Below, one piece after another: positions 1,490-11,526 of a stretch of DNA of 25,534 nt. The position numbers were made by a program, and so were the translations under genes. Numbering within the stretch: the first letter of the stretch is position 1; every line of letters begins with the position of its first letter. The notes beneath the pieces were generated by a model. It was not told the DNA's origin. It did not search any database and saw only the letters and a program-made list of their open reading frames with translations. The DNA is from a virus: positions 1-25,534 of the IMG/VR virus record IMGVR_UViG_3300042429_000116. One strand, given 5' to 3'.

Positions 1490-1996
1490 TCAACCTCCAA
1501 ATATTTTCTTGAGGGCATCATACATAGCGCGTGCTTGCACAATACTCATACCATTGAGCATGGTTTCCACATCAGGCGCAGCCTTTGGGGTAGTACCGAC
1601 ATTGAGCGCGGCAATGCCAACACTCTTTGGCTTGCGCACAAGTTTGTTGACGCTTTTACCCTCGGTTCTTAATTTTTTGGATGACTTCAACGGCGCATAA
1701 GCAGGAATAAGTGTTGTGTACTCTCCTGCGTCAGTCTTAGCCATTTGCCCTTGCTTTGTGAACTGCGTGAGCAATGAGCCCACTGACCCTTCGTTCAACC
1801 CTTTCTTTGCAAGAGCTTTGCGTATCTTATCGCCCGTCAGGCGAGGGTTGTCTCGCACGTAGTTGAAAGTTTCTTGGGTCACGTTGGTTGTTGATTTGAA
1901 TAAATGTTTTGGCACTTGTTTCTCCTGTTGAATTTTTTGGTCGTCTTTTTCCCACTCTGAAAGCGCGGTGGTCAGCGCAGTCTGGATGTCAGGCAT
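1490..1996 (-). CDS. winged-helix-like DNA-binding protein, 168 aa
   Basis: Residues about 40-95 have the pattern of a winged helix-turn-helix. A helix (TQETFNYVRDNP) leads to a turn and GDKIRKALAKKGLNEGSVG, then the recognition-like helix SLLTQFTKQGQ and a beta wing (MAKTDAGEYTTL). The C-terminal segment is basic and linker-like and ends in a helix with ARAMYDALKKIFGG. The start has GGAGGG about 8 nt upstream. It follows the AAA+/VWA/DUF3150 module by 15 bp, so it may belong to that operon and regulate it or another early gene. The fold assignment is by pattern only. Confidence 0.7.
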   Translation of the reverse strand: MPDIQTALTTALSEWEKDDQKIQQEKQVPKHLFKSTTNVTQETFNYVRDNPRLTGDKIRKALAKKGLNEGSVGSLLTQFTKQGQMAKTDAGEYTTLIPAYAPLKSSKKLRTEGKSVNKLVRKPKSVGIAALNVGTTPKAAPDVETMLNGMSIVQARAMYDALKKIFGG

Positions 1997-2011: not shown

Positions 2012-2899
2012 TTAGAAACTAAATTTGCTTAAGATTGCATCGACGTTCTTCTTGACGTCTTGACGCACAGCTTCGTTCTTACGCAACTCAGTTGGCGTAA
2101 CACCAACCAACACTTGCTCAAGGTCACGACGCGCTGTTTCTAATGCAGGGTCGTTGACAATGTTAAGTGCTTTGGTCAGGTCGCACAACTCCAATGCACT
2201 TTCTACCAACGTATCGTGGAAACGTCGGGGCTTGGCTTCGCCTTGTACGTAATCAGTAGTCAACCTGTCGGACATGCGCTTCAAGTGGGAACTAAGTCGT
2301 TCACGCACATCTGACATAGCGTTGTCAACGCGTTCCTGTGTCAGCTTGTCCAGCCTAGCTTTAAGCTCAGCTTGTGCGGCATTGCCTACGTCTACGCGGA
2401 AGTCGCCCGATGTGGGTACGGGCATGTAGTTCACGCGGAACGAGAACTTGGTCATGATTTCATTCGCGCTTGGGTAATCATCTCTCTTGAACATATCACC
2501 CAGAGCCATAGCTTGAGCAGTAATCAACGAGGGGTAGATTGTCACAAACGACTTGACCAACGCAGTGAACTCATGCTCGAAGTCATCGAGCTTCTCAGTG
2601 AACGCCATGAACGATATGTTTGGCAACAAGCGCAAGCCGGAGTCAGACCAAGGCGATGTTTTGTCGTAAACATACTGACGCGCACGACCAACAGCTTGTT
2701 GGATAACCTCCAACTCTGTGCGACCTGCAAGCAGGTGCTTGCTGACACGCGCCGCATCCTTGGCGGCGGCATGCTTAGTTGCTACAACTTCATCGGTTGT
2801 TGTCTTGTCCAGCTTGCGTGCTGTCCATACTGATGCATTGAATTCAACAAGCATCGCGCATGTGTCAATGTTGTAACGAGGAGTGGTGTTTGTATTCAT
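2012..2899 (-). CDS. DUF3150-like protein, partner of the AAA+/VWA module, 295 aa
   Basis: Features I associate with DUF3150 are present: an aromatic/arginine segment ARQYVYDKTSPW at about residues 72-83, a GLRLLPN motif, and the string NYMPVPTSGDFRVDVG near residues 157-172. The N-terminal half is helical, and the C-terminal half (about 180-290) is a long charged helical region. As I recall, DUF3150 proteins in phages and mobile elements are often encoded beside MoxR/CobS-like ATPases, and here such an ATPase is 21 bp upstream. No catalytic residues are evident, so an adaptor or structural role for the ATPase-VWA pair is an inference. The RBS is AAAGGAAA in a leader nearly identical to that of the ATPase gene. 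Confidence 0.8.
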   Translation of the reverse strand: MNTNTTPRYNIDTCAMLVEFNASVWTARKLDKTTTDEVVATKHAAAKDAARVSKHLLAGRTELEVIQQAVGRARQYVYDKTSPWSDSGLRLLPNISFMAFTEKLDDFEHEFTALVKSFVTIYPSLITAQAMALGDMFKRDDYPSANEIMTKFSFRVNYMPVPTSGDFRVDVGNAAQAELKARLDKLTQERVDNAMSDVRERLSSHLKRMSDRLTTDYVQGEAKPRRFHDTLVESALELCDLTKALNIVNDPALETARRDLEQVLVGVTPTELRKNEAVRQDVKKNVDAILSKFSF

Positions 2900-2926
2900 G
2901 ATTGGTTTCCTTTGTGTTGATTACTT
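2894..2926 (-). promoter_or_regulatory. translation leader nearly identical to that of the AAA+ gene
   Basis: Read on the minus strand, the sequence before the DUF3150-like start contains AATCAAC, then CAAAGGAAA, then CCAATCATGAA. The leader at 4040-4072 has the same elements with only a few base changes. The AAGGAAA core is the ribosome binding site and spacing to ATG is conserved. Confidence 0.6.
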
Positions 2927-4045
2927 GGTGCCGAAAAAGATTTTGTGCTCAGCCAACATCTTGCCGAAGTTAGTGTTGGTAACGAACACGCCTACACGCT
3001 GAGATGTGGACACTGTGTTGCAGAAGATTGACTGCATCTCTGCACGCATGCGCCACACATACTCAGTAACTGCCGCCGCTTCTTCTCTCGTCTGTGCACG
3101 CGACACAAACTGAAAGACTTGAATCAACTGCGCAGTGGGGTTGTCGGACAGCGGTGCTTTAGCAGGGTCAGCGATGACGCGTGCATAGTCACAGATGTCA
3201 CGACCGAAGCGAACAAACGATGCCATCGCCTCAGCAGTAACGACACCGACAGTACCGATTAGAGCTTGCTCAAGAGTGTCGTCGTCGAGTACGTGCATGC
3301 CCTCATCCAAGACATCACCAGCGGCGGCGAGTGAACGAGGAGTTGCATACGCGAGTTGCACAGACTTGGGATTGAAGATGTGTCCGTTGTCTTTGGATAA
3401 CGTCTTGCCCTCATACTTGCCGCCCTTCTCATAGTCGAGGAACGAGTCCATCACCATCGGGTTGTTGTCAACGAATGCGATGACCATAGGATTGATACCC
3501 GCATCGGTAGCCCAACGCACCCACTCGACAGCAGTCGGCTTACGCATCTTGACGAACACAAGACGATTACGCAAGTGAGCTTGAATGGAATCGCCAAGAC
3601 CCTCGACCGATAGATTGGTAGCGGCGAAGACAATACTGTTCTCAACGAAGTGGTAGTTGCCAACACGTTGCTCGTACACGATAGGCGCGAGTACGTTCTT
3701 GATGAACTGCGGTGCTTTGGCAATCTCATCTAAGAACGCGATGATTGGTTTGCCACCATTGACACCACGTTGATTGTTCTTCGATACACCGAAGCGTTCA
3801 TTGGGAAGCTCACGCGACACGCCGTTCTCGCGGTCAAGGTCAGGCATCCACACAGAACCATCGGACAACTGAGTGCAGTCGATAGGGTCAACGGCAATGT
3901 GATTGGCAAACTTAGGCATACGCTTGAGTTGGTGGAACAGCGCAGTCTTGCCGATGCCGTTCTCGCCCTCGACAATGATGGTGCGCTTGTGACCAACAGC
4001 GGCGATTAGGTCGATGACTTGAGAAGAAGAGAGATATTGATTCAT
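2921..4045 (-). CDS. CobS/MoxR-like AAA+ ATPase, 374 aa
   Basis: This is an AAA+ ATPase with Walker A GENGIGKT at residues 27-34, Walker B IIAFLDE at about 101-107, sensor-1 FAATN at about 140-144, and a likely arginine-finger region HLRNRLVFV near 157-165. The pattern fits the MoxR/CobS/AAA_5 group, whose members act as hexameric remodelling chaperones paired with VWA-domain proteins. The start MNQYLSSSQ was chosen for the AAGGAAA site 8 nt upstream; the longer ORF would overlap the upstream gene. The stop of the VWA gene is 20 bp upstream and the DUF3150-like gene is 21 bp downstream, so the three are probably co-transcribed. Chelatase function itself is unlikely because no other tetrapyrrole gene is present. 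Confidence 0.88.
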   Translation of the reverse strand: MNQYLSSSQVIDLIAAVGHKRTIIVEGENGIGKTALFHQLKRMPKFANHIAVDPIDCTQLSDGSVWMPDLDRENGVSRELPNERFGVSKNNQRGVNGGKPIIAFLDEIAKAPQFIKNVLAPIVYEQRVGNYHFVENSIVFAATNLSVEGLGDSIQAHLRNRLVFVKMRKPTAVEWVRWATDAGINPMVIAFVDNNPMVMDSFLDYEKGGKYEGKTLSKDNGHIFNPKSVQLAYATPRSLAAAGDVLDEGMHVLDDDTLEQALIGTVGVVTAEAMASFVRFGRDICDYARVIADPAKAPLSDNPTAQLIQVFQFVSRAQTREEAAAVTEYVWRMRAEMQSIFCNTVSTSQRVGVFVTNTNFGKMLAEHKIFFGTK

Positions 4046-4072
4046 GATTGCTTTCCTTGAGTTGATTAAAGA
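4040..4072 (-). promoter_or_regulatory. translation leader of the AAA+ gene
   Basis: On the minus strand this reads AATCAACTCAAGGAAAGC followed by AATCATGAATC. It is a near copy of the leader before the DUF3150-like gene, and the last 18 nt also match the leader of the 209-aa acidic protein at 7936. Confidence 0.6.
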
Positions 4073-5256
4073 GAGATATGCAAGACCTTGCCGTGAGTGG
4101 GAACGAACGAGTCGTTGTCCACCACACCCCACAGTGACGGCATCGGGGTGCTAGGCGTATCGCAACCGAGGTATCCATCGGTCAGCCATACGATTCCTTT
4201 GGCATCTATCTTGTGCTCACGAATGTAGTCAACGACAACTTGCGGAGTTGTGCCGCCACCGCCTTGAGGTTTCAAGAGAGATGCAATCAGTTCATATTCA
4301 TTTGGTTTGAATACTTGGTCGCCACACACAGCGTCATCCCACCACAAGATGCGAACAGTCTCGGGCTTGACTAGCTGACAGATGCGAGAGATTTCACCAA
4401 AGAGCAGACGATAATGTGGATACATAGAACCTGAGGTATCGGGTGCGAGTATCAACTCACCGACTGTCTCGGTGTAGTGCGATGGCATGATGTAGCCAGA
4501 CGCAAGCAGTCGCTTGTTGGGGGGACAGAAGCGTGAGTTGTCATCACCTTGGGACACAGAGGTTATCCAGTCTTGCATGGAGGGTATCCAGTCAGTGATG
4601 CGTTCCTTGGCATGACCAAAGATGTCACGACCACCTGCACCTTGACCTGCTAACTTACGCGCAAGCATCTCGCCTTGCCTATTGGCATCGTCAATCTGTT
4701 TGCCTAGCTTCTCTTTCTCGTCCTCAGCAAACTCACCATCCTCATGCGCGTCGATGGGCTCATCGTATCCGTGGTCATCGCCACCCTCACCATCTTCGGG
4801 TTCTTTGCGCCCTTGTTTGATGAGGTCATTGAGTACCTGAGGGAAAGACCAACCGAAGTACTTGCGGTCAATCAACAGGTTTGGTGTTGGACGTTCAACA
4901 AACTCGAAGTTAGGGTCAAGCTCTTCGATGAGTGCATTGACCACATAGTCCTGAGCAATGTTGCAAAGCTTAGGCATGCGCTTGTTCTCTGCGCGATACA
5001 ACACACAATGCTTGAGTGCAACGTGGAAGTTCTCATGCAGTGCTAGATACCGCAGTTGCTTGCGGTTGAGTGGGGTGATGAACGCTGAGCCGTACTTCTT
5101 GTCACGCCCATTGGTTGATGCAGTAGGCACCTTGTCTGATACCTCAGACTTGCCCATACATATCACTGCGCTGAGCAGTGCAAATTTTGGATGCCGCATG
5201 CAGTCTATGTTGACCGCTTGTATGCGTTGGTTGAGGGTCATCTTCTCGAAACTCAT
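4066..5256 (-). CDS. metallopeptidase-like plus VWA domain protein, 396 aa
   Basis: The N-terminal domain contains HENFH at residues 74-78 (the zincin HExxH pattern) followed by AQDYVVNALIEE at 101-112. This is the arrangement seen in the putative metallopeptidase domain often fused to VWA (DUF2201-type). A very acidic linker spans about 150-185. The C-terminal VWA domain has a complete MIDAS: DTSGSM at 273-278, GGGTTP at 333-338 and LTDG at 358-361. Known MoxR/CobS-type ATPases work with VWA partners of this kind, where the MIDAS binds a substrate acidic residue through a metal ion. The RBS is AGGAG 7 nt before ATG. The gene leads the three-gene module and lies just downstream of a palindromic operator-like region. 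Whether the HENFH site is proteolytically active cannot be judged from sequence alone. Confidence 0.88.
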   Translation of the reverse strand: MSFEKMTLNQRIQAVNIDCMRHPKFALLSAVICMGKSEVSDKVPTASTNGRDKKYGSAFITPLNRKQLRYLALHENFHVALKHCVLYRAENKRMPKLCNIAQDYVVNALIEELDPNFEFVERPTPNLLIDRKYFGWSFPQVLNDLIKQGRKEPEDGEGGDDHGYDEPIDAHEDGEFAEDEKEKLGKQIDDANRQGEMLARKLAGQGAGGRDIFGHAKERITDWIPSMQDWITSVSQGDDNSRFCPPNKRLLASGYIMPSHYTETVGELILAPDTSGSMYPHYRLLFGEISRICQLVKPETVRILWWDDAVCGDQVFKPNEYELIASLLKPQGGGGTTPQVVVDYIREHKIDAKGIVWLTDGYLGCDTPSTPMPSLWGVVDNDSFVPTHGKVLHISL

Positions 5257-5279
5257 TTGCTTCTCCTGTTATGTTCAAC

Positions 5280-5319
5280 ACTATAACACAAGCTGTCAAA
5301 GCTTTGACAGCTTTGACAG
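5280..5319 (-). promoter_or_regulatory. promoter/operator before the VWA-AAA+ module
   Basis: Three contiguous 9-bp half-sites occupy 5293-5319 (plus strand CTGTCAAAG, CTTTGACAG, CTTTGACAG). The first two, with flanks, form a perfect 22-bp palindrome at 5291-5312. On the minus strand an extended -10 (TGT then TATAGT, the hexamer at 5285-5280) lies just downstream, so the half-sites cover its -35 region. This is a typical layout for a dimeric repressor or activator controlling the 5256 gene. There is no U-tract, so it does not look like a terminator. Confidence 0.55.
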
Positions 5320-5328
5320 AGCTAGGGA

Positions 5329-6288
5329 TTACCCTTTAAGCACGATGTTTGTGCGGGGGTAATCACTCTCCACAACGAATTGTGGAATCTCTACCAACTC
5401 GGTGCGTTCGTGTGCACCTGTCAGCCTATTGATGCGCCCGATGATGGCGGAACGAAACTCAGGCGGGGTTATTGGTTTCTCAAGCTTGTCGATGGAGTCA
5501 GCGGGTCTTTTGTGGTACGTTGACCCCATGTTGAAGTTGGGTTGCGCGTATGCCCGCTTGGATATAAGCACTTCGTATGCGTTCTGACACATCTGAAAGA
5601 AGTGATTGATAGCTATCTGGTCGGTGCTACCTTCTGACATATCAATTATTGATTCTTGATACCTGCGTTCACTGCCCCCACTGAAGGGTGTGCCATAGTT
5701 TTTGTTGACCTCTGTGTTTGCATGGAACTCAGGCATACGCATCTGTGCCATCATGATGTATGGCTCGAACATCTTGACTACCTTAGCACGATGTGCTTTG
5801 TCGTCTTTGCTTGAGACTTTGCGGTAGTGTCTTGTGTGCACTGATTTGCTGGTGTCCAACACGCCATCCACGTATAGGTAGTCGGCACTGAAGTCATTGC
5901 CATCGTGGTGTAGCGACGACCTGTGATAGATGGGTGCTATCACCTTTGTCCCATCAGGCATGACTTCTCTAAGCCCTCTCTCCACACCCAACACATGGTA
6001 CATAAAGTCTCTGCTTGTTATGGACTGGTCGCCCATGTACAGACAGCGTTCATGTAGCTTGCCGTCGATAGTCTGCGGTGTGAAGTACCTTGCCATCACT
6101 GTGCGGTACAGCATCAAGTCATAGTACTCGGCGTGCTTGACCACACGATAGTGGTGGTACGTTTTATACAAAGGGCGTTCGTTCTCTGCCCACTTCTTAC
6201 TACGCACTACGCCGCGTACATTGAATTGCTTCTCTGCCTCGGCGTAGTCACGCACCCAAGGTAAAGCTCTGACTGTGTTTCCAAACAT
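5329..6288 (-). CDS. phage protein of unknown function, 319 aa
   Basis: The start MFGNTVRALPWVRDY was preferred because GGAG lies 8 nt upstream; an upstream in-frame ATG lacks a site and would overlap the neighbour. The protein is rich in Tyr, His and Arg (YKTYHHYRVVKHAEYYD) and contains mixed alpha/beta stretches with no membrane segments. Several His/Asp positions (SSLHHDGNDFSADYLYVDG) might bind metal, but no known catalytic signature is recognised. It sits directly upstream of the VWA-AAA+ module, separated from it by the 72-bp operator region, and 5 bp after the 129-aa gene. It may therefore belong to the same functional block or end the preceding operon. Confidence 0.75.
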   Translation of the reverse strand: MFGNTVRALPWVRDYAEAEKQFNVRGVVRSKKWAENERPLYKTYHHYRVVKHAEYYDLMLYRTVMARYFTPQTIDGKLHERCLYMGDQSITSRDFMYHVLGVERGLREVMPDGTKVIAPIYHRSSLHHDGNDFSADYLYVDGVLDTSKSVHTRHYRKVSSKDDKAHRAKVVKMFEPYIMMAQMRMPEFHANTEVNKNYGTPFSGGSERRYQESIIDMSEGSTDQIAINHFFQMCQNAYEVLISKRAYAQPNFNMGSTYHKRPADSIDKLEKPITPPEFRSAIIGRINRLTGAHERTELVEIPQFVVESDYPRTNIVLKG

Positions 6289-6293
6289 GTTGC

Positions 6294-6683
6294 TTACTCC
6301 TGTGTTGTTGATTTGATTGCGGGGAACTCTGTGTTGAGTGAGTGCGATGTGTAGATGTAGTCCCAAATGTCGTCTGTATCACCGCCTTGGTTTGACTCTT
6401 CTACACCATCCTCACCCATCTGCGTGATGCGGTAGCCTGCCTCTGGATAAAGCTCGATTGACCAATCCAGAATTGCGTTGTGTGCTTTCACATCGTCGTA
6501 GTCTGCGTACCACTTCACATCCTCTACCTCGAATGTGATGATTGGTTGCTCATACCTTGTCTCGCATTCTTTGATTGCCTCTGACATACCATCGTTGCGA
6601 TGCCTGACCAACTCAACGAATGTGTCTCGTTGCTCTGCTGTTTCAAAGCGTATGACATACGCTACATCTGACCTATACCCCAT
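6294..6683 (-). CDS. phage protein with GYRSDVAYVI motif, 129 aa
   Basis: The start MGYRSDVAYVIRFET is supported by GGGGGAG about 7 nt upstream. The N-terminal GYRSDV motif followed by a beta strand is a recurrent opening of small phage proteins of unknown function. The middle is acidic with aromatic residues (VKWYADYDD, ILDWSIELYPEAGY), and the C-terminus is acidic and probably disordered. The start overlaps the upstream gene by 11 bp. No function is assigned. Confidence 0.7.
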   Translation of the reverse strand: MGYRSDVAYVIRFETAEQRDTFVELVRHRNDGMSEAIKECETRYEQPIITFEVEDVKWYADYDDVKAHNAILDWSIELYPEAGYRITQMGEDGVEESNQGGDTDDIWDYIYTSHSLNTEFPAIKSTTQE

Positions 6684-7936: not shown

Positions 7937-7952
7937 GATTGCTTTCCTTTTT

Positions 7953-7976
7953 AAAATGTTGGTGAAGCGCACCAAC
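7953..7976 (-). terminator. weak terminator-like hairpin in the leader of the 209-aa gene
   Basis: On the minus strand GTTGGTG and CACCAAC (7976-7970 and 7964-7958) pair around a 5-nt loop and are followed by ATTTT. The stem is only 7 bp and the U-run short, so this may be an attenuator or merely an RNA hairpin before the ribosome site at about 7948. Confidence 0.35.
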
Positions 7977-7981
7977 GACGC

Positions 7982-8008
7982 AACTGGCAGACACCATGTC
8001 TGCGAGTT
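7982..8008. repeat. dispersed palindromic element, copy a
   Basis: The left arm AACTGGCAGACA and right arm TGTCTGCGAGTT are separated by CCA, giving a 12-bp stem with one mismatch. It lies 20 bp after the stop of the 27-aa ORF. On the plus strand it runs into a T-run; on the minus strand it does not, so it is not a simple leftward terminator. Confidence 0.8.
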
Positions 8009-8027
8009 TTTCTACGATGAGTGTTCC

Positions 8028-8340: not shown

Positions 8341-8526
8341 TTACGAGAACGTGTTTTCTTTGACCCGCTCAAGATACAGTTGGTTTAGCCGTTCCTGTAC
8401 CTCCAGCCACTTGTCCTCGTACAGCACTTGCAGTGCCATGCCGACAGACCAACGCACATCATCTTCATCCTCCATGTGTTTGACCGCTTCCTCAATCAAC
8501 TCATCAATATCAATTTCAATCTTCAT
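8341..8526 (-). CDS. small acidic protein, 61 aa
   Basis: The protein begins MKIEIDIDELIEEAVKHM, is strongly acidic and helical throughout, and has a WLEVQERLNQLYLERV segment near the end. GGAG precedes the ATG by 6 nt. Its start overlaps the stop of the DUF2591-like gene by 11 bp. Its function is unknown. Confidence 0.65.
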   Translation of the reverse strand: MKIEIDIDELIEEAVKHMEDEDDVRWSVGMALQVLYEDKWLEVQERLNQLYLERVKENTFS

Positions 8527-8869
8527 TTACTTCTCCTTGTGTTAACTCTGTTGGTATCTCGACTTCATCGCCAAGCTTGCTTGCTACATAGCACCGCATA
8601 GCGGCAATCAGTGGGGTGTCGCCATAAAAGCGCATCAAGTCACCCTCATCATTTACTTTACGCGCCCCCCATTCAACATTGCACAATGGGTAAATCTCAA
8701 TAAGCTCCCGCTCAATAATCGGCCCGCCTTGCTCCCAAGTCAGGTAGTCGAGGAACCAGCCGTTGTCATCACCAATAGTGATGTTAAGAATAGCCGTATC
8801 GTGGTCTATGCCCTCGACCTGCGACACCGCCCAGTTAAGGGCGTGTCTTGTCAGTTCACTTGTTTTCAT
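8516..8869 (-). CDS. DUF2591-like phage protein, 117 aa
   Basis: The start MKTSELTRHALNWAV was chosen for the AAGGAG site upstream. Hallmarks of the family I know as DUF2591 are visible in order: the opening K-T-S-E-L with LNWAV, the WEQGGPIIERE motif at about residues 45-55, and the C-terminal TPLIAAMRCYVASKLGDEV at about 85-103. These proteins occur in many phages and prophages with no known function. It is one of a row of translationally overlapping small genes; its start overlaps the upstream stop by 4 bp (ATGA). Confidence 0.88.
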   Translation of the reverse strand: MKTSELTRHALNWAVSQVEGIDHDTAILNITIGDDNGWFLDYLTWEQGGPIIERELIEIYPLCNVEWGARKVNDEGDLMRFYGDTPLIAAMRCYVASKLGDEVEIPTELTQGEVNED

Positions 8870-9045
8870 TTGCTTTCTCCTTGGGTTAGTTCGCACAGCT
8901 CATGTATGCGGTACAGCACATTCTCAAGCTTCAGTGCTACTTCGTGGCGTTTGCTGATGCTGTCAAGGTTGTCCACTGCATAGCTCAGTTGCGCCCTTAT
9001 GTGCACAAGCTCGATGTGCCAATCGTGTTCTTGTTCTTTAATCAT
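8866..9045 (-). CDS. small helical protein, 59 aa
   Basis: This short ORF starts MIKEQEHDWHIELVHIRAQL and is predicted helical throughout, with a second helix RHEVALKLENVLYRIHELCE. A strong GAGGAGG site is upstream. It overlaps its neighbours by 4 bp on both sides (ATGA arrangements), which supports it as a real coupled gene. Its function is unknown. Confidence 0.65.
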   Translation of the reverse strand: MIKEQEHDWHIELVHIRAQLSYAVDNLDSISKRHEVALKLENVLYRIHELCELTQGESK

Positions 9046-9243: not shown

Positions 9244-9285
9244 TCAGACTTCGTCTGAAACTCGCAGACACCATGTCTGCCAGTT
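9244..9285. repeat. dispersed palindromic element, copy b, plus adjacent hairpin
   Basis: The arms AACTCGCAGACA (9259-9270) and TGTCTGCCAGTT (9274-9285) flank CCA, with one mismatch. The right arm touches the stop codon of the zinc-ribbon gene. Immediately to the left, TCAGAC (9244-9249) and GTCTGA (9253-9258) form a second small hairpin. On the minus strand the two hairpins follow the gene end, but no long U-run follows them. Confidence 0.75.
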
Positions 9286-9922
9286 ACTTACGCCGAGCCA
9301 GTAGCTCGGGCACTTTCATGTTCGCTTTGTCCTCCTTCCTTATGCTTATCCACCTGTCACGCAAAGACTCGACCCCGAACTCGGACACCAAGTCCCACCA
9401 GTTTTCTTTAATGCTTTTGTACTTGTGTGGGTCTGCCTCGAAGTCGAGCAGTATGCGTCCCTTCTCTCTTCTAAGTACCGACTCGTACTTCTCCAACAGC
9501 CCTTCGTACTCGCCATGCCCCGCTTGGGCGGCGTAGCGTATCTGTGCCTTCACCTTGTGGATTTCGTATGTCATGGGTGCAAGGGTTTCTTTGAGTTGTT
9601 TACGCCACTTATCTACCCACGCTTCGTAGCGTGCTCGGCTTTGTAGCAACACCGCCATCCTTTGGCGTTCAGCCAGTATCTGCTTCGCCCTCGCTTCGCT
9701 GATGTCGCCACTCACCACCATGTTGTGCAGTTGCTTGGGCGTTTGCTTGCTCGGGGGCTTGCGCTTGGGTTGGCAGTCTTTGCAGTTCTTTGAGGTGATG
9801 GTCATGAGCACTTCACCTTTCATGCCACGAGCATGCATTTGTGCACGAGATAAGCGGCGTTTGAATTGGGCAACGGGCTTTTCTGTGCCGCACTTGTTAC
9901 ATTTTTTGTAGTCCTTTTGCAT
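9284..9922 (-). CDS. zinc-ribbon protein with long helical domain, 212 aa
   Basis: The N-terminus has CNKCGTEKPVAQFKRR (cysteines 8 and 11) and a second pair KNCKDCQ (about 47-50), forming a four-cysteine zinc ribbon of the type found ahead of phage HNH nucleases. However, no HNH signature follows. The remainder is helical and basic, with a Gln-rich AERQRMAVLLQSRARYE stretch and a C-terminal segment WWDLVSEFGVESLRDRW. A role in nucleic-acid binding is inferred from the ribbon. It is the first gene left of the 9923-10370 control region, and its site (AAAGG, 8 nt) lies within that region's edge. Confidence 0.72.
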   Translation of the reverse strand: MQKDYKKCNKCGTEKPVAQFKRRLSRAQMHARGMKGEVLMTITSKNCKDCQPKRKPPSKQTPKQLHNMVVSGDISEARAKQILAERQRMAVLLQSRARYEAWVDKWRKQLKETLAPMTYEIHKVKAQIRYAAQAGHGEYEGLLEKYESVLRREKGRILLDFEADPHKYKSIKENWWDLVSEFGVESLRDRWISIRKEDKANMKVPELLARRK

Positions 9923-10334: not shown

Positions 10335-10361
10335 AACTGGCAGACACCATGTCTGCCAGTT
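10335..10361. repeat. dispersed palindromic element, copy c (perfect)
   Basis: The arms AACTGGCAGACA and TGTCTGCCAGTT are exact reverse complements over 12 bp around CCA. It lies 9 bp after the stop of the 55-aa gene at 10371-10538. Confidence 0.8.
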
Positions 10362-10370
10362 TGCCTGTTG

Positions 10371-10723: not shown

Positions 10724-10755
10724 TGAAAAAACTCGCAGACAAGTTGTCTGCCAGT
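10724..10755 (-). terminator. palindromic element copy d acting as a leftward terminator
   Basis: The arms AACTCGCAGACA (10730-10741) and TGTCTGCCAGT (10745-10755) flank AGT. Read leftward, the hairpin begins 2 bp after the stop of the 133-aa gene and is followed by a run of T (10731-10725), which is the classic form of a rho-independent terminator. It belongs to the same repeat family as copies a, b, c and e. Confidence 0.7.
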
Positions 10756-10757
10756 CG

Positions 10758-11159
10758 TTACACAGAAGCCAAGAAGCGGCGCTTCTCAGCCGCAGTCAAC
10801 TTATTGAAACTTGTTACCAAACGAGCAACCTTGTCACTCTTGCTGTTGGTCTTGGGTTTCTTGAGCTTGGGTGTGTCCTTGTTCACATCCACAAAGATGT
10901 TGTCAAGAATCCTGTCGGTGCGTCTCTGCTCGGCAGTACCTCGCCCGAATGTCCAGCCACGCTGACCCTCGTAAGGCTTGCGTGTGACCTTGGGCAGTTG
11001 CGTCACATAGAACACGACATAAGGCACTGCATCCTTGCGTGTGCCTACACCATTGCTGAGCAAGGTGTCTAGCAAAGTCGCAGACTCAATGTCTGCGAGT
11101 TTCAGAGTAGGCACGATTGCACGATAGGTGCGTGTGTTGATTGCTGTTGCAAGTTTCAT
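10758..11159 (-). CDS. first gene of the leftward arm, 133 aa, unknown function
   Basis: The start MKLATAINTRTYRAIVPTLK was chosen because GGAGAG lies 6 nt upstream; an ORF extending to 11309 would cross the promoter and attenuator. The central part YVTQLPKVTRKPYEGQRGW is followed by a basic lysine-rich linker (KLKKPKTNSKSDK) and a helical C-terminus (FNKLTAAEKRRFLAS). It has no recognised domain. It is a single-gene transcription unit bounded by a promoter and attenuator at 11173-11243 and by two terminators, so it is likely an early-expressed regulator or host-interaction protein. That role is inferred from position only. A degenerate copy of the palindromic element lies inside it. Confidence 0.7.
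   Translation of the reverse strand: MKLATAINTRTYRAIVPTLKLADIESATLLDTLLSNGVGTRKDAVPYVVFYVTQLPKVTRKPYEGQRGWTFGRGTAEQRRTDRILDNIFVDVNKDTPKLKKPKTNSKSDKVARLVTSFNKLTAAEKRRFLASV
11076..11101. repeat. dispersed palindromic element, degenerate copy e, within a gene
   Basis: GCAGAC (11080-11085) and GTCTGC (11091-11096) are separated by TCAAT inside the 133-aa gene. The flanks match the family only partly. On the minus strand it encodes KLADIESAT, comparable with the KLADMVSAS that the other copies would encode in one frame. Confidence 0.5.
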
Positions 11160-11243: not shown

Positions 11244-11526
11244 CAAACGAGTTTCACAATACCCTTGACATGAAAAATCGTAATACCTTAGACCCCACCA
11301 TACCCCCACTACCCCTTATGTCAGCAAGGCGTGCGTTGTCCCGTGAACACTATTCCCCACCCGCTCCCAGAACTTCTGTAATACTTAATAGCACGCTAAC
11401 ACCCCACCCCCAAATTTTATAAAAATTCTAAATAACCTTTGTCAAACATTGGACAACTCAGCACATAAAAAAACCCCCGCCATTGCTGGAGGGGGCTGAA
11501 AAGACCTTGAAGGTCTAGGAGAAGCA
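11244..11526. other. divergent intergenic region between early and late arms
   Basis: No gene is supported here. The plus strand is C-rich in clusters (11293-11315, 11355-11367, 11402-11411), so the minus strand carries many G-runs of 3-5. An AT-rich patch lies at 11412-11432, a short inverted repeat TTGTC/GACAA at 11439-11456, and a leftward terminator at 11467-11497. No clear rightward -35/-10 pair for the late genes is visible. Confidence 0.5.
11467..11497 (-). terminator. strong leftward intrinsic terminator
   Basis: On the minus strand CCCCC-T-CCA-GCAA-TGG-C-GGGGG folds into a two-part stem closed by a GCAA tetraloop and is followed by seven T (11473-11467). It would block leftward transcription arriving from the terminase side. 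Confidence 0.7.

Follow-up and report, generated by a model that had tools for sequence, protein, structure and literature searches.

A DUF3150-bearing AAA+-VWA gene trio of phages and plasmids, a candidate machine for complex remodelling

Which function is served by three closely spaced genes, coding for a protein with a von Willebrand factor type A (VWA) domain, an AAA+ ATPase, and a DUF3150 protein, in the early region of a virus? This question is raised by the IMG/VR virus record IMGVR_UViG_3300042429_000116, of which positions 1 to 25,534 were analysed (the window, i.e. the whole 25.5-kb stretch). In the window, a leftward early region (approximately 0.3 - 11.3 kb) is followed, from 11.6 kb onwards, by packaging and structural genes in rightward orientation, among them a small terminase-like gene and the genes for the large terminase subunit (TerL), the portal, and the major head protein. 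The trio is located in the leftward early operon, opposite in direction to the structural genes. It is real, conserved, and functionally linked, and represents a DUF3150-bearing version of a known MoxR-VWA kind of system. Most probably (roughly 60%), the three genes encode one MoxR/midasin-type AAA+-VWA remodelling machine with DUF3150, acting in the early-to-middle phase. This reading rests on homology, intact motifs, near-obligate linkage, operon layout, a shared promoter site, and purifying selection. The three genes are as follows:

4066..5256, minus strand: VWA protein, 396 amino acids, with an N-terminal putative metallopeptidase domain (HENFHVALKH, HExxHx4H) and a C-terminal VWA domain with a metal ion-dependent adhesion site (MIDAS)
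2921..4045, minus strand: AAA+ ATPase, 374 amino acids, MoxR/midasin-like (phrog_1297, midasin profile match, invariant motif residues)
2012..2899, minus strand: DUF3150 protein, 295 amino acids, presumed third component or adaptor (Pfam DUF3150, AlphaFold2 model)

The genes lie where a sequence-only reading of this DNA had placed them and are closely spaced, as it had stated, with gaps of 20 nt (VWA-AAA) and 21 nt (AAA-DUF3150); a gap of 15 nt separates the DUF3150 gene from a gene for a 168-amino-acid protein. The AAA gene starts with the ATG at 4045 and not with the upstream GTG of the mechanically predicted open reading frame. Three genes, namely those for the ATPase and DUF3150 and the one with its start at 7945, are preceded by an almost identical ribosome-binding spacer, AAGGAAAgCAATCATGAAT (2900-2920, 4046-4065, and 7946-7955).

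Protein families and conserved residues

The VWA protein belongs to the DUF2201 family, as it matched two Pfam domains, each above its cut-off, namely DUF2201_N (6e-12; 46.2 bits versus 23.2 bits), annotated by Pfam as a putative metallopeptidase, and DUF2201 (1.3e-9; 38.7 bits versus 26.4 bits), annotated as VWA-like. Its head carries H74-E75-H78-H83 together with D103/N107, a pattern of HExxH plus a further ligand that points to a zincin-type site. The HExxHx4H motif was retained in 142 of the 143 distinct VWA homologues from all loci, and D103 and N107 were invariant among 70 aligned sequences. The same holds for the MIDAS residues (D273/S275/S277, T336, and D360), which provide the DxSxS, T, and D of a VWA domain with MIDAS. 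Both the zincin-like head and the full set of MIDAS residues, as claimed from the sequence-only reading, are hence intact and conserved in the homologue alignments. In two Paraburkholderia plasmids (L037 and L365), HExxH and the downstream ligands are lost together, with the VWA domain being kept; these copies are candidate pseudoenzymes, and their joint loss of ligands suggests that the head is a real metal site, dispensable in some lineages. An AlphaFold2 model of the protein was obtained with a predicted local distance difference test (pLDDT) score of 79.5 and a predicted template modelling (pTM) score of 0.52, of which the VWA half retrieved the VWA domain of CLCA1, ArnAB, and the MIDAS domain of human midasin (1.1e-4) with Foldseek.

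A different name is given to this protein by PHROGs (phrog_1314, 1.6e-57) and RefSeq, which label the family, gp25 of phage N4 included, as HNH endonuclease. The database label is the sole argument for such a function, which is scarcely credible: Pfam assigns the DUF2201 metallopeptidase and VWA domains, spanning most of the protein, and no HNH domain; the C-terminal half of the AlphaFold2 model is a VWA domain; and the invariant residues are those of HExxHx4H and MIDAS. The label of the gp25 family is almost certainly wrong.

The AAA protein matched phrog_1297 ('ATPase'; 5.8e-37), and its best solved relative in a profile search against the PDB was midasin (1.2e-17). Walker A (G30/G32/K33), Walker B (D106), sensor 1 (N144), R161, and a sensor-2-like P236-R237 are invariant in the alignment. 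The AAA+ core, with Walker A/B, sensor 1, arginine residues, and sensor 2, is present, in line with the intact Walker and sensor motifs noticed earlier.

The DUF3150 protein matched its Pfam model just above the cut-off (8.8e-6; 25.7 bits versus 24.9 bits) and belongs to this family, of which 49 of the 67 members scanned, the window protein included, matched the model. Its AlphaFold2 model (pLDDT 84.8, pTM 0.51) contains two helices of more than 40 residues each. A fold search against the PDB gave nothing significant (best E 0.46). Against viral models, eight significant matches were found, namely one DUF3150 protein, being the best match, and unnamed phage proteins of similar size. For DUF3150, neither sequence nor fold points to a solved relative, and a literature search retrieved no paper directly on it. 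The assignment of the three proteins to AAA+, VWA, and DUF3150 families, made earlier from the letters, was upheld by Pfam and profile searches.

Linkage, selection, and a shared promoter site

A scan of IMG/VR with DUF3150 confirmed at least 579 of 600 candidate stretches, and linkage was counted in 66 distinct DUF3150 loci flanked on each side by 4.5 kb or more. In 65 of these 66, both partner genes were found on the same strand within 5 kb of the DUF3150 gene, a count that is tilted towards linkage by some loci retrieved through a VWA query; loci retrieved through DUF3150 only gave the same picture. The gene orders were AAA-VWA-DUF3150 (37 loci), VWA-AAA-DUF3150 as in the window (19 loci), AAA-DUF3150-VWA (eight loci), and DUF3150-AAA-VWA (one locus). 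This persistence of linkage through reordering indicates a joint function of the trio. The sole exception is a Manganitrophus plasmid, in which DUF3150 comes after another AAA gene, DUF1257, and DUF2997. A conserved linkage in phages and mobile elements had been proposed from the window, with its absence from a neighbourhood survey named as the counter-evidence; the present survey found the linkage.

Hundreds of freshwater phages and some plasmids carry the trio. Among cultivated phages, Planktothrix phage Pag-Yong1 carries all three genes. The plasmids concerned are from Simplicispira, Paraburkholderia, Caballeronia, Cupriavidus, and Rhodovastum, and on several of them the trio has a PRTRC cassette or genes for type IV secretion nearby. 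The trio was also found on cellular contigs, next to toprim/primase, RadC, Rad52, and methylase genes; to judge by these neighbours, such loci are probably integrative elements or plasmids.

The AAA-VWA pair itself is already known in phages, DUF3150 as third component being the under-described part. Indeed, the AAA and VWA proteins have homologues in gp24 and gp25, respectively, of Enterobacteria phage N4 (Schitoviridae; profile matches of 4.6e-74 and 2.2e-58). Both N4 genes belong to the 14 core genes of N4-like phages, where they are described as unknown and 'vWFA domain', and they are middle transcripts (PMC4193335). N4 resembles the window in having adjacent AAA+ and HExxH-VWA genes, in the order AAA-VWA, but belongs to another phage group, and the N4-like proteins are only about 19-27% identical to those of the window. 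For these two core genes, of which gp25 has a database label that is almost certainly wrong, the link with a three-part system provides a testable assignment, as AAA+ remodeller and metallopeptidase-VWA partner. The trio in turn supplies a named third component without a solved fold, together with N4, grown on E. coli K-12, and Pag-Yong1 as cultivated models.

The ratio of nonsynonymous to synonymous substitution (dN/dS) was about 0.02-0.17 for the trio genes versus 0.22-0.45 for the flanking genes of 322 and 168 amino acids, and the trio is under strong purifying selection. The synonymous distance between the window and its relatives L004-L027 was 0.2-0.5 for the VWA and AAA genes and approximately 0.4-1.2 for most flanking-gene comparisons; the low values in near relatives may reflect recombination, codon bias, or hidden constraint.

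Upstream of the VWA gene, a promoter with a palindrome was found, the core of which recurs elsewhere in the window:

5291..5312, no strand: perfect 22-nt palindrome AGCTGTCAAAGCTTTGACAGCT, putative operator, upstream of the VWA gene
5312-5319: third half-site TTTGACAG, directly after the palindrome
5280..5285, minus strand: -10 element TATAGT of the trio promoter, about 8 nt past the TTGACA of the palindrome
11440..11455, no strand: operator core, second copy (TGTCAAACATTGGACA), in the interval that separates the leftward early operon from the terminase genes

With small variations, the core TGTCAA-N4-TTGACA was present in 26 of the 28 distinct upstream regions of VWA-first loci and in 22 of the 41 of AAA-first loci (0.04 expected). 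A -10-like hexamer (TANANT-like) followed the core in every site-bearing upstream region tested, and the outer arm bases of the palindrome vary in a compensating fashion. The same core occurs at the divergent promoter between the early and terminase genes, in 55 of the 89 terminase-upstream regions of relatives (0.2 expected), trio-less phages included. It is sparse in the large contigs read, with a few copies each (11 in 373 kb). The recurrence at the terminase side and in phages that lack the trio indicates that the regulatory site of the trio is a phage-wide one, and a private trio operator was rejected. The sequence-only reading, which had the trio preceded by its own operator, was therefore right about a palindromic promoter/operator, which is real and conserved, and wrong about its being private; this is the part of the earlier interpretation that fell, the families, linkage, motifs, and lack of chelatase evidence having held. 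The palindrome was also considered as a transcription terminator, as it is terminator-like in a scan, and this was rejected because no real T-run follows and the palindrome lies upstream of the -10 element.

Proposed complex remodelling and competing explanations

Complex remodelling would be the function best inferred for the trio. The AAA+ protein would form an ATP-driven ring on which the VWA protein docks via its VWA domain, the MIDAS gripping a peptide or acidic ligand, while the zincin-like head (HExxHx4H) may bind or clip the client. The DUF3150 protein, long-helical and with no recognisable catalytic residues, may present the client as an adaptor or may itself be the part that is restructured, the three proteins presumably forming a physical complex. 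Early-operon position and shared regulation argue for a role in the early-to-middle phase; the remodelled complex would thus be one that matters to the element at that stage, in replication or host take-over, rather than a virion part. Comparable machines are known. In NorQD, the pore of a MoxR hexamer is plugged by the VWA partner, which is also in contact with the client (PMC9976466). In the general vWA-MoxR model, the VWA protein captures a peptide, upon which an altered client is released in an ATP-driven way, and in ternary vWA-MoxR systems a complex with a third component is restructured (PMC7159879). RavA-ViaA, NorQ-NorD, and CbbQ-CbbO share with the trio an AAA+ ring and a VWA partner that remodel a protein complex. 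Their clients are metabolic enzymes and, to our knowledge, their partners lack a DUF2201_N head and no DUF3150 is involved. Midasin (Rea1/MDN1) is the closest solved AAA+ protein by profile (1e-17), with its MIDAS domain among the closest VWA folds, but is a single giant eukaryotic polypeptide involved in ribosome assembly. The MoxR-vWA ternary conflict systems (VMAP/FtsH/beta-propeller; PMC7159879) likewise combine an AAA+ protein, in their case of the MoxR clade, with a vWA protein and a third protein. The trio differs from these in having DUF3150 instead of VMAP, no fused effector domains, a nearly constant metallopeptidase-like head, and a location on phages and plasmids. Neither VMAP nor an effector domain was found in the trio with Pfam and NCBIfam, placing it outside these conflict systems.

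Several observations weigh against a ternary remodelling machine. Only eight of the 17 phages that have a related TerL and a sufficient length of upstream sequence carry any trio gene, so that the trio is dispensable there. A DUF3150 homologue was found in only three of 50,697 phage records (tblastn against isolate phages), which makes DUF3150 an added component typical of uncultivated phages, and no DUF3150 was found in the 16-kb stretch of N4 searched; the AAA-VWA pair can thus work without it. The AAA protein of the window stays under the Pfam cut-offs (among family members, AAA_5 was matched by 10 of 19, and AAA_3 and bpMoxR by two), so its MoxR-clade placement rests on profile similarity to midasin. 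The loss of HExxH in the two Paraburkholderia copies means that peptidase activity is not universal. Finally, distances of the trio proteins correlate with r 0.95-0.96, but those of TerL do so nearly as well (r 0.89-0.97), for which reason correlated distances were rejected as proof of coevolution. Apart from these points, two of the trio-less phages are contigs of 61-67 kb with no trio gene in the sequence read, and no DUF3150 match was found in two stretches of the IncA plasmid pRA1, together about 100 of its 144 kb.

As to what else the trio may do, a counter-defence or host-takeover function, by which a host complex, possibly one for defence, would be dismantled early after DNA entry by phages and conjugative plasmids alike, is conceivable but on the doubtful side. 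Phage early regions and plasmids both contain the trio, as do loci with RadC, toprim, and methylase genes that are probably integrative elements; such settings are home to establishment and anti-restriction genes, and the trio is accessory within the phage clade. However, no PADLOC model matched over most of its length, which places the trio outside the known anti-phage defence systems represented there, the trio showing only P-loop-level matches (best E 0.01); its slow evolution is unlike that of a typical arms-race protein, and N4-like phages, whose hosts are diverse, have homologues among their core genes. At about the same tentative level, the trio may belong to an undescribed class of ternary NTP-driven machines (AAA+-VWA(zincin)-DUF3150) dedicated to mobile elements (phages, conjugative plasmids, and integrative elements), with gp24/gp25 of N4 as its two-part form, that would dismantle a host complex to establish incoming DNA. 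If the target is indeed a host complex, a host take-over step common to phages and plasmids would be revealed. Slightly less probable is a proteolytic machine, in which clients would be passed by the AAA ring to the zincin-like head of the VWA protein, acting as an active peptidase. The near-universal HExxHx4H, the invariant D103 and N107, and the Pfam name of the domain are consistent with it, as is the M28-like metallopeptidase that trio-less relatives have in the same early region; yet the plasmid copies that lost the metal ligands still keep the VWA domain, and the M28 gene occurs together with the trio in three loci, so that the two are not simple substitutes.

A role as chaperone for virion (tail) maturation is improbable. 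It could be suggested by p618/p892 of the Acidianus two-tailed virus, a viral MoxR-VWA pair that has been studied experimentally (PMC4124505); moreover, virion genes of roseophage RPP1 lie near gp24/gp25 homologues. The pair p618/p892 differs from the trio in stemming from an archaeal virus, in being part of the virion and involved in tail development, and in that no DUF3150 is described. In the window, the trio forms part of the leftward early operon, which runs counter to the structural genes. Plasmids carry the trio as well, in stretches for which, as far as read, no virion genes are annotated, and this plasmid occurrence speaks against a function confined to the virion, as for p618/p892. 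A function as metal chelatase or insertase, of the CobS/CobT or BchI/BchD type, is more improbable still. The AAA+-VWA architecture is shared in general, but neither the trio nor the neighbours tested matched CobS/CobT or a chelatase family in Pfam and NCBIfam, in agreement with the lack of chelatase context noted earlier. Likewise, no cobalamin or chlorophyll gene was seen near the loci examined, and the trio is conserved in phages and plasmids.

Neighbouring genes and other sequence elements

The trio is flanked by two genes of the early operon:

1490..1996, minus strand: downstream gene, 168 amino acids, weak winged-helix/MarR-like similarity (phrog_1687, 0.0053), candidate regulator
5329..6297, minus strand: upstream gene, 322 amino acids, unknown family, part of the trio-bearing early-region haplotype

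The 168-amino-acid gene adjoins the trio in most trio loci, yet also occurs in trio-less relatives, and is not strictly a member of the trio. Its further winged-helix matches are single and weak, and given this weak similarity the protein is a candidate regulator only. The 322-amino-acid gene stands beside the trio in most close relatives and was absent from the trio-less relatives examined; its protein had no significant match in Pfam or PHROG. Near the end of one contig (L029, 1-1130), a second, inverted copy of the AAA gene (partial) and the 322-amino-acid gene was found, being a terminal repeat or an assembly artefact.

Several trio-less relatives have a different early region, with the M28-like peptidase and a protein of 451-473 amino acids of unknown family. 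The M28-like metallopeptidase (phrog_4191, 4e-69) lies beside the latter in L271 (2875-5352) and L291 (2143-4694). No similarity was found between the 322-amino-acid protein and the 451-amino-acid protein of this other haplotype. The trio and the M28 cassette as mutually exclusive alternatives were rejected, given the three loci that carry both.

In many AAA-first relatives (L071, L072, L080, L083, L105, and others), the ribosome-binding site of the AAA gene is immediately preceded by a strong palindrome around GGACACnGTGTCC, approximately 30 nt upstream of the gene start; this palindrome differs from the trio operator. Elsewhere in the early operon of the window, positions 8516-8872 encode a P22 NinX family protein (5.5e-15). 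A 28-nt near-palindrome, AACTsGCAGACAccaTGTCTGCcAGTT, is present in five copies in the early region (7982-8009, 9259-9286, 10335-10362, 10730-10757, and 11075-11102), some of which fall within predicted coding frames; an operator, a terminator, and a mobile palindrome are all conceivable. Lastly, a GC-rich hairpin with a minus-strand T-run, CCCCCTCCAGCAATGGCGGGGGTTTTTTT, occurs at 11470-11497, just upstream of the leftward early promoter, and is an apparent intrinsic terminator.

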